Position numbers and translations under genes: made by a program. Below, in pieces: positions 55,328 through 61,323 of a stretch of 64,000 nt of DNA. How positions within the stretch are numbered: position 1 is the stretch's first letter; each line of letters starts with the position of its first letter. A model generated the notes under the pieces. It was given only the letters and a program-made list of their open reading frames with translations, did no database searches and was not told where the DNA came from. The DNA comes from Flavobacterium xanthum (GTDB lineage: Bacteria > Bacteroidota > Bacteroidia > Flavobacteriales > Flavobacteriaceae). Location of the stretch: NCBI RefSeq assembly GCF_900142695.1, contig NZ_FRBU01000006.1, positions 62,001 through 126,000 of the forward strand, read 5' to 3'.

Positions 55328-55346
55328 ACAACAAAGCTAAAACAAA

Positions 55347-55372
55347 AAAAATCCCGATTGCTCGGGATTTTT
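55347..55372 (-). terminator. Terminator of the rimP-nusA-infB operon
   Basis: AAAAATCCCGA (55347-55357) and TCGGGATTTTT (55362-55372) form an 11-bp stem around TTGC, 18 bp after the infB stop, with a U-tract on the minus strand. Confidence 0.9.
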
Positions 55373-55390
55373 CATAAATATATTAAAATT

Positions 55391-58291
55391 CTATTTCAAT
55401 TTCTTCTTAACAGCTACTTCATGGTACGATTCAATAACATCTCTTTCTTCGATGTCGTTGTAACCTTTTACTTGAATACCACAATCATATCCTTTAGCTA
55501 CTTCTTTTACATCATCTTTGAAACGTTTCAATGCTAACAGTTCTCCTGTAAAGACAACCACACCTTCTCTAATGATTCTCATCTTAGCGCTTCTAACAAT
55601 TTTACCGTCCATTACCATACATCCAGCAATTGAACCAACTTTAGAAATTTTGAAGATCTCTCTAATCTCTGCTGTACCTAAAATCTCTTCCTTCATTTCA
55701 GGAGCTAACATTCCTTCCATTGCATCTTTCAAGTCATCAATAGCCGCATAAATAATAGAGTAGTAACGGATATCAATTTCTTCTTTATCTGCTAATTGTC
55801 TTGCATTTCCAGCAGGACGAACATTAAATCCGATGATAATCGCATCTGATGCAGAAGCCAACATTACGTCAGTTTCAGTAATTGCTCCAACCCCTTTATG
55901 AATAATATTAATTTGAATTTCTTCAGTAGATAATTTAGAGAACGAATCAGACAATGCTTCAACAGAACCATCCACATCTCCTTTAAGGATAATGTTTAAT
56001 TCTTTAAATTGACCCAATGCAATTCTACGTCCAATTTCATCCAAAGTAATATGACGTTGTGTACGTACCGATTGTTCACGCATCAATTGAGAACGTTTAG
56101 ATGCAATTTGTTTCGCTTCTTTTTCGTCTTCAAATATATTGAACTTATCACCCGCAGTCGCTGCTCCATCAAGACCAAGAACTGAAACCGGAGTCGAAGG
56201 ACCCGCCACAGTTACTATGTTCCCTCTTTCATCATGCATGGCTTTAATTTTACCATGATGCTTACCAGCTAACATATAATCTCCAATTTTCAACGTTCCG
56301 TTTTGAACTAATATCGTAGAAACATATCCTTTTCCTTTGTCAAGGAAAGCTTCAACAACAGTTCCAGAAGCCGCTTTATTTGGATTTGCTTTCAAATCTA
56401 AAAGTTCTGCTTCTAATAATACTTTTTCTAATAATTCTTTCACACCTGTTCCCACTTTCGCAGAAATATCATGTGATTGAATTTTTCCACCCCAATCTTC
56501 AACCAATAAATTCATACCTGCTAATCTTTCTTTTACTTTTTCAGGATTAGCATTTGGCTTATCAATTTTATTGATAGCAAATATAATAGGAACTCCAGCT
56601 GCTTGAGCATGGCTAATTGCTTCTTTGGTTTGCGGCATGATGTCATCATCAGCAGCAATCACAATAATAGCAATATCGGTAACTTGAGCACCACGCGCAC
56701 GCATCGCAGTAAACGCTTCGTGACCCGGTGTATCTAAGAATGCAATTTTTTGTCCGTTATCTAAAGTTACTCCGTAGGCACCAATATGTTGTGTTATTCC
56801 TCCAGACTCCCCTGCAATTACGTTTTCTTTACGAATGTAATCCAGTAACGATGTTTTACCGTGATCGACGTGACCCATTACCGTTACAATTGGCGCTCGG
56901 AAAACTAAATCTTCTTCTCTGTCCTCAACAACTTGAATCGCTTCTTCGATGTCAACAGTAATAAACTCCACTTCATAACCAAATTCATCTGCAACGATAG
57001 TCAAGGTTTCTGCGTCAAGACGCTGGTTCATGGTTACCATGATTCCAAGTGACATACACGTACCGATCACTTTCGTAATTGGCACATCCATCATGATGGC
57101 AATTTCACCTACCGTAACAAATTCCGTAACCTTAATGGTTTTACTTCCTTCGTCAATAGCTCTTTGCTCATCATCAGATTTCTGACGGTGCGTATCTCTT
57201 TTATCTCTTCTATATTTAGCCGCTTTAGATTTACCACCTTTACCTTGTAGTTTCTCTAAAGTCTCTCTAATTTGATTTTTAACTTCCTCTTCAGTAGGCT
57301 CCACTTTTGCAACAATAGCAGGTCTGTTACCTTTAACAAATCCAGGTCTTGAACTTCTATTTGCATTGAATCCGCCACCACCTACATTAGGGGTAATCTT
57401 ATTCGGGTTTGGTGCACCAGGAACTCCTGGTATTGCTGGCGGTCTTGGAGCACCTGGTTTAGGAGCAATCCTTTTACGCTTATTTTTATTTGCATTGGCT
57501 GCAGCCGAACCTGGAGCACCCGGTTTATTCGGAGTGATTTTTGGTTCTTCTTTTTTCTTTTTCGGTTTGTTGAACTGAGATAAATCAATTATCTGACCTG
57601 TTAAAGTAGTTCCCGATAGTTTTTGATATTGCGTAGTGATGGTTTCATCAACAGGCGCTTCATCTGCTTTCGCAACCGCTTTTGGTTCAGCAGCAACTTC
57701 TTCTTTTGGAGCCTCTGGTTTAACTTCTTTTATTCCAACAATAGGTTTTACCTCTTTTTTGTCTGAAACAATTTTTTCTTCCAAAGCCTTTTCTTGCAAC
57801 GTTTGTTCTGCAGTTACTTTTTCTGGAGTCACTTCTTTTACAACTGGTTTTACTTCCTGTACCTTAGCAACTGGAGTTTCAACTTTCTCAACTGCTTTTG
57901 TAGGCGAAATAATGGAAGGCTTCTTTGGATTCAGATCAATTTTACCCACTTGAACAGGTCCTGCTATAACTGCTCGCGCTTTTATAACCTCCTGTTGTTT
58001 TAGACGATCCTCCTCAATTTTGCGTTTGTCTTCAATTTCTTTCTCTCGTTCTAAACGCAAAGCCTCTTTTTCTTTCCTTTTCTCTTCTCCTACTTCTTTT
58101 GAAGCTTCTTTATTCCCTTTGTCACCTGCAAACTGACCGCACAAGACCTTGTACACATCATCAGAAATCTTTGTGTTTGGATTTGCCTCAATAGCGATTC
58201 CTTTATCTTTTAGATAATCCACAGCTCTTTCCAAAGAAATATTCAATTCCCTTAAAACTTTGTTTATTCTAATAATTCTCTCTTCAGACAT
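55391..58291 (-). CDS. infB: Translation initiation factor IF-2
   Basis: The 966-residue protein has a short N-terminal IF2 domain ([19 protein letters not shown]), a long charged and Pro/Gly-rich linker (residues ~60-340), then the GTPase: G1 [15 protein letters not shown]3 DTPGHE and G4 NKID, and the C-terminal domains that bind fMet-tRNA. It delivers initiator tRNA to the 30S subunit. It is the last gene of the operon, 112 bp after nusA. The gap holds a small hairpin. Confidence 0.97.
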
Positions 58292-58403: not shown

Positions 58404-59657
58404 CTAACTGTCAAATTCCTCTTTCAATATTCTCATTACATCTAAAATCGTTTCCTCTTCTAGGTCTGTTCTTCGTACTAAATCTTCAACATCTTGTTTT
58501 AAAATACTTTTTGCAGTATCTAAACCAATTTTTGCAAACTCTTCAATAACCCAGTCTTCAATTTCATCTGAAAACTCTGTTAATTCAACATCATCCTCAT
58601 CAGCAGTTGCACCAGCAACATCGCCTTCGCGAATAACATCTAACTCATAGCCAGTTAATAAACCCGCTAATTTAATATTATGTCCACCACGACCAATTGC
58701 TTTTGAAACTTCTTCAAGCTTCAAGAAAACCTCTGCTCTTTTTGTCTCTTCATTAATTTTAATAGACGATACTTTAGCTGGACTTAATGCTCTAGTAATA
58801 AACAATTGAATGTTACTAGTATAATTAATTACATCGATATTTTCATTCCCTAATTCACGAACAATTCCGTGAATACGAGACCCTTTCATACCTACACAAG
58901 CTCCTACTGGATCAATTCTATCATCGTAAGAATCAACGGCTACTTTTGCTTTTTCACCTGGAATTCTCACTACTTTCTTAACCATAATTAAACCGTCAAA
59001 AACTTCAGGAATTTCTTGTTCAAACAATTTCTCTAAAAACTTCTCCGAAGTTCTAGACATGATGATTTGAGGTTTATTTCCTTTTAATTCAACGCTTTCA
59101 ATTATTCCTCTAACATTATCTCCCTTGCGGAAAAAATCAGAAGGAATTTGTTTTTCTTTTGGCAAAATGATTTCGTTTCCTTCATCATCAACCAAAATTA
59201 CAACTCTAGGACGCACATGGTGTACTTCAGCAGTGTATATATCGCCAATTAAATCTTTAAACTGTTTGTAAAGATTTGTATTGTCATGCTCATGAATTTT
59301 TGAAATTAAATTTTGGCGTAAAGCTAAAATTGCTCTTCTTCCTAAATCAATTAACTTCACTTCTTCAGAAACTTCTTCACCAATTTCAAAATCAGGCTCG
59401 ATTTTTCTAGCTTCAGTTAAAGTAATTTCAAGGTGATCAAAATCCAAATCTTCATCAGAAACAATCACTCTTCTTTGCCATATTTCCATATCTCCCTTAT
59501 CAGGATTTATAATAATATCGAAATTATCATCTGAACCGTATTTTTTTTTCAATGCATTTCTAAATACATCTTCTAAAATTGCCATAAGCGTTACACGATC
59601 AATAAGTTTATCATCTTTAAACTCTGAGAATGAATCGATTAATGCTAAATTTTCCAT
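58404..59657 (-). CDS. nusA: Transcription termination/antitermination factor NusA
   Basis: The 417 residues hold the N-terminal RNA-polymerase-binding domain, an S1 domain (~135-200) and two KH domains (DRIDPVGACVGMKGSRIHGI; KLEEVSKAIGRGGHNIKLA). The acidic repeats of the longer E. coli NusA are absent; only a short acidic C-terminus is present. It modulates pausing, termination and rRNA antitermination. It sits 13 bp after rimP in the conserved rimP-nusA-infB order. Confidence 0.96.
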   Translation of the reverse strand: MENLALIDSFSEFKDDKLIDRVTLMAILEDVFRNALKKKYGSDDNFDIIINPDKGDMEIWQRRVIVSDEDLDFDHLEITLTEARKIEPDFEIGEEVSEEVKLIDLGRRAILALRQNLISKIHEHDNTNLYKQFKDLIGDIYTAEVHHVRPRVVILVDDEGNEIILPKEKQIPSDFFRKGDNVRGIIESVELKGNKPQIIMSRTSEKFLEKLFEQEIPEVFDGLIMVKKVVRIPGEKAKVAVDSYDDRIDPVGACVGMKGSRIHGIVRELGNENIDVINYTSNIQLFITRALSPAKVSSIKINEETKRAEVFLKLEEVSKAIGRGGHNIKLAGLLTGYELDVIREGDVAGATADEDDVELTEFSDEIEDWVIEEFAKIGLDTAKSILKQDVEDLVRRTDLEEETILDVMRILKEEFDS

Positions 59658-59670
59658 GCGAATTCTTTAA

Positions 59671-60135
59671 TTAAAATGTTACTGTAACAATTGCTTCTTT
59701 TATATCTTCATAAGGCAACTTAAGTTCTTTTTGAACTGTTTCTTTACCTTTCCCTACCTTTTTAGGTTCTCTTGCTTCCCAAGACAAAACTACAAAATCA
59801 TCATTAGCTTCTACTAATTCTGCCTCAATTATTTCTGTCCCAGTCTTTACAATCAAAGTTCTCCCGACATTTTTCTTGTATTGCCTTACTAATTTCAATG
59901 GCGACCCAACCCCTACCGAAGCTACTTCTAAGGAATAATCTTGTTCTTCCCGATCCAAATCATTGTCTATAAAACGACTTACATCTATACAATCCTGAAG
60001 CGCTACTCCATTATCACCATCTACAGTCACAATAACCTTAAAAGCATCAGTGATAACAAGGTCTATCAAAAAAATTGATGGCTTTTCTAAAAGGCATTCT
60101 GCCAATAACGTATTTACTTTTTCTTTAAATGTCAT
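59671..60135 (-). CDS. rimP: Ribosome maturation factor RimP
   Basis: The start at 60135 ([15 protein letters not shown]) fits the family; an in-frame ATG at 60171 would add 12 residues but lies inside a hairpin. The 154-residue protein shows the RimP N-terminal domain ([39 protein letters not shown]) and the C-terminal SH3-like domain. It helps assemble the 30S subunit. It is the first gene of the operon with nusA and infB. Confidence 0.93.
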
Positions 60136-60143
60136 ATTTTTAT

Positions 60144-60169
60144 AAAAAGAGGGGACATTTAGTCCCCTC
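60144..60169 (-). terminator. Terminator-like hairpin in the rimP-nusA-infB leader
   Basis: GAGGGGAC (60149-60156) and GTCCCCTC (60162-60169) form a perfect 8-bp stem around ATTTA. On the minus strand a U5 run (60148-60144) follows directly. It ends 8 bp before the rimP ATG at 60135 and begins about 20 nt after the expected transcription start. The shape is that of an attenuator. Confidence 0.7.
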
Positions 60170-60197
60170 ATTATCTAGATTTTAATAAATAACGGTG

Positions 60198-60205
60198 CAA
60201 ATATA
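60198..60205 (-). promoter_or_regulatory. Candidate -7 element of rimP-nusA-infB
   Basis: The minus strand reads TATATTTG, a full match, 63 bp upstream of the rimP start. The expected -33 position carries TTT rather than TTG. Confidence 0.6.
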
Positions 60206-60310
60206 GTGTTTTTTTTATAAACTAAAATAATCACTTGGTGTAAAATAATTTCTTACCTTTAAAAGTCAATTAAAACAACCGTTTTTACCATAATTTAACA
60301 CTTTCTTATT

Positions 60311-61135
60311 ATGAAACGTATTTTAGTTCCCACCGATTTTTCTGAACATGCCGAAAAAGCTTTAAAGGCAGCAGCATTGATTGCAAAAATAACTAAATGC
60401 GAACTATTTATCTTGCATTTATTAGAAATACCGAATCAGATGAACGATGCAATAACAGGAGGCAACGGCATTCCTGAAGAAACACTGTTTTTTAAAAAAG
60501 CCAATGAAAAACTACAAAAAACCAAAGACCAACCCTACTTAGCTGGAATTTCCGTACACGCTTCCGTTCAATACGAAAGAGCTTTTAGTGGCATTTTAGC
60601 CTTTAATAAAAAAAATAAAATTGATCTCATCGTAATGGGATCTCACGGAACCTCTGGCATTGAAGAGCTTTTGCTCGGCTCCAATACTGAAAAAGTGGTG
60701 CGCCTCTCTGAAATACCCGTTTTAGTCATCAAAAAAGAGGTAGGCGAATTAAAATTCAAAAACATGGTTTTCGCTTCTGATTTTTCACCAGAAACGAAAA
60801 AACCTTTTACCAAAATGCGAGATTTTGCCGCAATTTTTGAGGCAAATTTATTTTTAGTTTTTATCTGCACCCCAAACAGCTTTAAGACTACTCTTGACGC
60901 GGAAAAAATAATGAACAAGTTCATCAAGAACTACGACATTCAAAACTACTCTTTACACATTTTTAATGACACTAATATCGAAAACGGAATTGTCAATTTT
61001 TCAAAAACTATCGATGCTGATTTAATAGGACTATGCACCCATGGCAGAACTGGATTGGCTCATTTTTTCACTGGAAGCATCAGCGAAGACTTAGTCAATC
61101 ATGTTACAAAACCCATCATCACCTTCAAAATCTAA
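60311..61135 (+). CDS. Tandem universal stress protein (UspA family)
   Basis: Two Usp folds in 274 residues. The first (residues ~1-150) has the complete nucleotide motif G-x2-G-x9-G-S in GSHGTSGIEELLLGSN. The second (~155-274) has CTHGRTGLAHFFTGS, where the first Gly is Cys, so only the N-terminal domain clearly binds ATP. The start MKRILVPTDFSEHAEKAL is typical. It is monocistronic, divergent from rimP. The stimulus is unknown. Confidence 0.9.
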   Translation: MKRILVPTDFSEHAEKALKAAALIAKITKCELFILHLLEIPNQMNDAITGGNGIPEETLFFKKANEKLQKTKDQPYLAGISVHASVQYERAFSGILAFNKKNKIDLIVMGSHGTSGIEELLLGSNTEKVVRLSEIPVLVIKKEVGELKFKNMVFASDFSPETKKPFTKMRDFAAIFEANLFLVFICTPNSFKTTLDAEKIMNKFIKNYDIQNYSLHIFNDTNIENGIVNFSKTIDADLIGLCTHGRTGLAHFFTGSISEDLVNHVTKPIITFKI

Positions 61136-61249: not shown

Positions 61250-61252
61250 CTG

Positions 61253-61323
61253 TTGGTCTACAAGGACTCGAACCTTGAACGACTGCACCAAAAACAGTTG
61301 TGTTACCATTACACCATAGACCA
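61253..61323 (-). tRNA. tRNA-Gln (anticodon TTG)
   Basis: The 71-nt cloverleaf is complete. The acceptor TGGTCTA pairs with TAGACCA and A is the discriminator. The D-arm is GTG/CAC around TAATGGTAA. The anticodon stem ACTGT/GCAGT encloses TTTTGGT, giving anticodon TTG (reads CAA). The T-arm is CAAGG/CCTTG around TTCGAGT. CCA is not encoded. Confidence 0.95.

Follow-up and report, generated by a model that had tools for sequence, protein, structure and literature searches.

The window analysed, a stretch of 64,000 nucleotides from Flavobacterium xanthum, carries on its minus strand the genes rimP, nusA and infB, in this order, behind a short leader (Table 1). Within the leader, the sigmaA-type box TATATTTG is followed by CACC, a predicted start G, 23 A+T-rich nucleotides and a hairpin, hereafter P2, which begins 28 nt after the box. 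The start was placed by means of the F. psychrophilum sigmaA box TAnnTTTG, which is mapped at -12 to -5 in the main text of the respective study (PMC9723704). The resulting predicted leader of ~58 nt, counted up to the rimP ATG, agrees with the ~57 nt proposed in a first-pass annotation of this DNA. P2 is a perfect 8-bp stem (GAGGGGAC/GTCCCCTC) with 6 G-C pairs and the 5-nt loop TAAAT, and the T-stretch TTTTTATA follows directly on its 3' side. The rimP ATG is found 13 nt past the end of the hairpin and 8 nt past the end of U5, so that the hairpin plus U5 annotated between a promoter element and the rimP start was borne out.

Table 1. Positions of the leader features and operon genes within the window.
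Feature	Positions	Strand	Basis
sigmaA-type -7 box TATATTTG	60198-60205	-	Read from sequence
Predicted transcription start, G after TTTGCACC	~60193	-	Box position
Possible A+U-rich stem P1, GUUAUUUA (60193-60186) with UAGAUAAU (60177-60170)	60170-60193	-	Fold
Candidate attenuator hairpin P2, GAGGGGAC-UAAAU-GUCCCCUC, ~+25 to +45	60149-60169	-	Sequence, fold, covariation
U-tract UUUUUAUA (T5 at 60148-60144, then ATA)	60141-60148	-	Sequence
rimP, first operon gene	59671-60135	-	ORF; RimP query matches 293/299 genus genomes
nusA	58404-59657	-	ORF; Pfam NusA_N match at the same place in own genome
infB (IF2)	55391-58291	-	ORF; identity from reading of the translation and operon order

The leader RNA was calculated to fold at -19.6 kcal/mol (z -5.3), a value equalled by none of 200 shuffles. 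Among eight terminator-like sites detected in 9 kb on both strands (expected 4.8, sd 2.2), P2 has the most G-C pairs, and the pattern GGGGACN{3,9}GTCCCC occurs at a single place in the whole 3.76-Mb genome. The hairpin is thus confirmed as real and far from chance.

As to the neighbourhood, the rimP promoter shares its intergenic region with a divergent gene (60311-61135, plus strand), whose product by eye resembles a tandem universal stress protein, and a tRNA-Gln (ttg) gene is found at 61252-61323 on the minus strand. Downstream of infB, a hairpin with a longer U-run (55346-55373, minus strand) is likely the operon-end terminator, in contrast to the U5AUA of the leader. An in-frame ATG at 60171 (ATAATGAGG) overlaps the foot of P2 and would add 12 residues to RimP. 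The possibility that the hairpin is a coding part of a longer RimP was considered and discarded: among the relatives listed, the frame varies between 155 and 200 aa, so the N-terminus is not conserved, and the 155-aa frame has a stop directly ahead of the ATG.

Conservation and covariation in the genus and family

Leaders were collected from 50 loci of the genus, which comprised the 30 best matches and 20 from the lower part of the RimP matches listed. A strict cut-out rule, GAGG...CCTCTTTTTATA, selected 46 of these and yielded 29 distinct sequences (alignment A1), whose invariant columns within GAGG...CCTCTTTTTATA are partly so by construction, as the rule demanded them. With a looser rule for the box and the same demand on the hairpin, GAGG...CCTCTTTTTATA was found between box and ATG in all 50 loci, and the T-run is likewise kept in all of them. 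Mean column identity over the 50 loci was 0.90 for the leader, 0.70 for the 100 nt upstream of the box and 0.99 for the box, for which the extraction rule itself asked TAnnTTTG or TAnnTTTT (present in 50/50 loci). The corresponding values for rimP, by codon position, were 0.80/0.87/0.67.

The loop and upper stem of P2 vary among the relatives. The upper stem is found in three versions across the genus, GGAC/GUCC, GAAGC/GCUUC and CACGC/GCGUG, with both arms swapped whole. Two-sided changes affect five of the nine counted pair positions of P2 in the 29-row alignment, and the cells with such changes number 43, compared with 15.5 (sd 4.5) for the shuffles and 0 to 13 for the slid controls. Two of the five covariation measures, namely pairs with a two-sided change and further pair types, are no higher than in the shuffles. 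The stem is therefore conserved in close relatives with compensatory changes, the outcome for which the first-pass annotation had proposed to look.

Selection for pairing predicts that both arms are replaced as a whole, which is not expected of a fixed DNA operator. An operator for a dimeric repressor, formed by the inverted repeat, would account for a perfect palindrome close to the promoter. We consider it very improbable, given half-sites that are replaced whole in three versions within one genus, a position past the box, on the side that is transcribed, and a strand-specific T-run after the repeat.

A leader covariance model, R1, matched 288 of 299 genus genomes (251/253 of those of good quality), with a second match in ~21 of the 288, and its match ended 5-6 nt ahead of rimP in each of ten genus genomes compared by eye. 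In the family, R1 had matches, most of them weak, in 206/249 genomes (E up to 1), and the hairpin was found ahead of rimP in all 30 loci of the best family matches, 28 of which derive from other genera. From the 43 family genomes without an R1 match, 20 were taken, of which 18 have RimP; the 16 of these with a complete flank presented a perfect hairpin by rule in eight cases and an imperfect one by eye in the other eight. As for the remaining two, the hairpin of L125 was caught in a later family analysis and L124 lies outside the count. Since loci without an R1 match still carry the hairpin, most of the R1 misses reflect the model rather than absence of the element.

The possible stem P1 directly abuts P2. 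It pairs in 98.3% of the genus cells, where all variation is one-sided with no two-sided changes, and reshuffling on the genus rows is uninformative (2,000/2,000 reach the observed value), so that P1 was not accepted as a proven helix. In the family, a 4-bp remnant gives 67 of 92 pairs (mean 55.9; 1/2,000 reshufflings reach 67), a test performed on related rows and with the box chosen too far upstream in L053, L057 and L063. Taken together, P1 is a weakly supported putative upstream helix, for which the family test is suggestive.

The element across Bacteroidia and other classes

The draw of class genomes took no account of the hairpin, and a RimP_N domain search matched 109 of 119. Seventy of the 109 loci were examined, consisting of the 30 best and 40 hand-picked for family spread. 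A G-rich/C-rich hairpin followed by a U-run was detected in 68/70 loci, versus 64/700 shuffles and 8/70 under a mirror rule; the figures for its strong form were 67/70, 22/700 and 3/70, respectively. The two loci that fail the rule were inspected by eye, which revealed a weaker AAGGC/GCCTT hairpin in L166 and none in L158. A stricter rule gave a hit in 67/70 loci, with 0/700 shuffles reaching the locus's own score; it had no hit in L098, L135 and L166 and preferred another hairpin in L097, L131, L156 and L158, and the looser class rule recovered the leader hairpin in L097, L098, L131, L135 and L156. The opposite-strand run returned 48/70 loci for any form and 41 for the strong form; with a palindromic repeat and an A-rich spacer, it does not provide a clean control. 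GGGGAC...GTCCC is present in 38 of the 68 class hairpins, and nusA was found within the same fetched stretch in all 108 loci checked (L001-L030, L051-L128).

TAnnTTTG is placed 6-33 nt ahead of the hairpin in 68/68 loci (median 21, quartiles 18-25), and in the control 98/700 random positions lay within 41 nt of a box. The distance from hairpin to rimP start was estimated for 30 loci and spans 27-117 nt. Given these two ranges, the position of the element is fixed more closely relative to the promoter than to the start codon. This bears on a role in translation or mRNA stability, with a 5' structure that would protect the message or gate the rimP start. The short spacing of 13 nt between hairpin and ATG, which is similarly short in the genus loci inspected, would suit such a role, as would P1, in which the extreme 5' end of the transcript would be paired. 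The tighter distance to the box than to the start codon argues against it, and so do the U-run, which would have no obvious use there, and the occurrence of the element ahead of nusA when rimP is gone (next section), so that we deem it improbable.

A draw across the phylum by NusA matched 61/61 genomes and provided 39 loci from other classes, 38 of them readable. A G-rich/C-rich hairpin with a U-run was found ~540-810 nt before nusA in 29 of these loci, a count that is supporting only, as the sequences compared were wider, include coding DNA and were read without a shuffle control. About eight of the 29 hairpins are of the GUGGG...CCCAC type, and several have a mirror-type hairpin nearby. L214 displays a G-rich/C-rich hairpin by eye, and L227 is not clear-cut. 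A C-rich 5' arm was encountered in six loci of family f62 (L225, L226, L228, L230, L233 and L234) and in L231 (family f72); L228 shows the reversed orientation, ATCGCCCC...GGGGCGAT, plus a T-run. Ahead of E. coli rimP, the sequence is ACTGGGCTTTAGGCCCTTTTTTT.

Leaders of nusA in genomes without detectable RimP

A search for NusA in the twelve genomes that had no RimP_N match (ten from the class draw and two from the family set) found it in ten. Two of these ten, L171 and L172, do possess a RimP ORF after all, in divergent form. In seven of the remaining eight, the hairpin precedes nusA without an intervening rimP (by rule in four and by eye in three), and it was not found ahead of nusA in the 0.5-Mb genome G569 (L178). 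NusA was then used to sample two families more deeply, with a nusA locus in 9/11 and 7/7 genomes. In family f17, the hairpin is found ahead of nusA in 7/7 nusA loci, and genus g278 of family f44 comprises five loci with the order hairpin-nusA and four with hairpin-rimP-nusA.

Altogether, no RimP was found in L169, L170, L173-L177, L182 and L186-L190 (families f17, f24 and part of g278/f44), where nusA keeps the rimP-type leader. A RimP profile searched at E up to 0.1 had no match in any of these 13 hairpin-nusA genomes, ten of which are at least 95% complete. The profile does find RimP in four f44 relatives and in the own genome, which supplied its rows, so this merely indicates that the search runs. 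Independently, the Pfam RimP_N search was without RimP in seven of the same 13, the other six lying outside that search. A strongly diverged RimP may remain in these genomes. The absences span three families, which is a count of families and not of independent losses. A pattern scan also returned four f17-type MAG contigs (JAHEYK010000073.1, JAHEYJ010000198.1, SCSP01000122.1 and PLUL01000070.1) with the hairpin ahead of nusA in 4/4, whose leaders look identical to those of L188, L189, L176 and L175; they thus provide names rather than new cases. Between hairpin and nusA, L176 (named copy L193) contains a repeated stretch, GCTCAAAGTYCCTT...GGATTTAGGGC, which is absent from the other f17 loci inspected.

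As the hairpin persists upstream of nusA in all 13 genomes in which no RimP was detected, the element seems not to need RimP. This retention weighs against a hairpin bound by RimP, a reading that extends to IF2 or another protein that would repress the operon on binding. A RimP-rRNA interaction is noted, and RimP feedback mentioned as a hypothesis, in the main text of the study of the rimP-leader (PMC2965389), and infB is downstream in the window. The variable upper stem and loop argue against a sequence-specific contact there, and we judge protein binding of this kind quite improbable. Judged from the gene content of these loci, NusA seems a better candidate sensor than RimP; IF2, also encoded downstream, would be a possible sensor despite rimP loss, if a less likely one than NusA.

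Proposed mechanism and relation to known leaders

Constrained RNA folding was applied to the leader and revealed no stable competing fold or antiterminator. The best fold with the P2 pairs forbidden has -2.9 kcal/mol and that with the 5' arm open -8.2 kcal/mol, compared with -19.5 kcal/mol for the unconstrained one. In the -8.2 fold, the first rimP codons are paired with the loop and a portion of the 3' arm; this structure is weak and the loop is variable among relatives, but it may have a role.

NusA acts on hairpins at the RNA exit of polymerase. Owing to this property, to its being encoded here and to the B. subtilis precedent, it is the natural candidate for a regulator, and we consider it rather probable that the leader is an intrinsic terminator at ~+50 that NusA would stimulate in a negative feedback, both the termination and the NusA effect being what we infer. 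In such a mechanism, polymerase would start ~24 nt ahead of a strong G+C hairpin and meet U5AUA ~50 nt into the transcript, where some polymerases would stop and release an RNA of ~50 nt, and others would continue into rimP-nusA-infB. Polymerase-bound NusA would stabilise both the hairpin and pausing at the imperfect U-tract; more NusA would thus cause more termination and, in turn, less NusA, and one bare terminator would exert the feedback with no need for an alternative RNA fold. Against this reading speaks the U-tract, which consists of no more than U5 followed by AUA and does not reach the length of the run downstream of infB. An attenuator in the rimP-nusA-infB leader, as annotated at first, is well supported by the conservation, the covariation, the arms with their U-run, the tight promoter distance and the lack of a stable competing fold. 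NusA as the sensed product became more likely through the leaders ahead of nusA without detectable RimP, its effect on termination being the conditional part of that claim.

A constitutive partial terminator, which would set operon output or follow the elongation state (NusG, pausing, nucleotide supply) with no NusA feedback, would equally dispense with a competing fold. It would fit the leader, in which no sensor domain was seen, and the other classes, which keep a terminator-like hairpin though its sequence changes. We regard it as unlikely, in view of one terminator so strongly conserved in front of an operon whose products include a termination factor, and of its retention with nusA where RimP was not found, which fits feedback better; both are arguments rather than tests. 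Returning to the NusA-stimulated terminator, the arms differ in other classes and the 5' arm is C-rich in f62, so no fixed sequence recognised by NusA is conserved. As a proposition that we hold to be evenly balanced, the leader would belong to nusA and not to rimP, as a class-wide bare NusA-responsive terminator that was kept, and came to face nusA directly, where several lineages lost rimP. Since hairpin and U-run persist in other classes with other arms, the conserved trait would then be a terminator strength adjusted to NusA, and not a sequence to which it binds.

Rfam RF01770 (rimP) is an RNA family that takes its name from the rimP leader, and the element is not assigned to it. It has no match in the own genome, nor is it among the matches up to E 5 in 59900-60500, where an Rfam scan returned 14 matches up to that value, all below gathering scores. 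Among 14 control genomes, RF01770 matched E. coli alone, which indicates that the model covers a narrower form.

For F. psychrophilum, a structured 5' element upstream of rimP, shared by other Flavobacteriaceae genera and without an Rfam hit, has been reported (PMC9723704), which is very probably the same element as that described here. The consulted sections of that article were not found to contain a mechanism, a link to the rimP-leader or a class-wide survey. Likewise, nothing about nusA autoregulation was found in the consulted part of a study on NusA/NusG-dependent terminators (PMC8060035), and neither rimP nor nusA occurs in the consulted text of PMC7366714. Within the literature searches performed, to which this negative is limited, no earlier description of the class-wide element or of leaders in RimP-less genomes was found. 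What is new is the hairpin ahead of nusA in 13/13 genomes without detectable RimP, across three families.

The closest known system is the rimP-leader attenuator of Naville and Gautheret (2010; PMC2965389), for which NusA was considered the best candidate regulator and RimP a hypothesis, and which is described in the main text with a G-rich 5' arm, a C-rich 3' arm, a T-stretch and a terminator 4-130 nt before the gene. The window element shares with it the operon and the place, including the 4-130 nt range, the G-rich 5' and C-rich 3' arms and the T-stretch, and resembles its general form in having no visible antiterminator. The published signature is GGGc...gCCC (PMC2965389, main text), and the window has GGGGAC...GUCCCC, the genus also GGGAAGC and GGCACGC; the GGG/CCC is thus present in the window stem, the position in lower case is not c/g, and E. 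coli has GGGC...GCCC. In overall form, the element fits a Bacteroidia member of the rimP-leader kind. The separate "Bacteroidota solution" that had been annotated is accordingly to be given up, as the element resembles the rimP-leader published for other phyla (PMC2965389, main text). The strings "Bacteroid", "Flavobacteri" and "Cytophaga" are absent from the main text of that article, whose section on the rimP-leader has no discussion of RimP-less genomes. The present analysis extends a proposed, little-tested attenuator to a whole class with poorly known transcription control, and natural rimP deletions help to separate the two candidate regulators left unsettled in 2010.

In B. subtilis, NusA-stimulated intrinsic termination in the 5' leader controls nusA expression, as is reported as established in the consulted part of PMC12288461, whereas here it is predicted. 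The B. subtilis nusA leader measures ~180 nt (PMC2965389, main text) versus ~58 nt predicted here. Should NusA be the sensor, this would be a case of a termination factor regulating itself through one tuned terminator, the simplest device, in very distant phyla.
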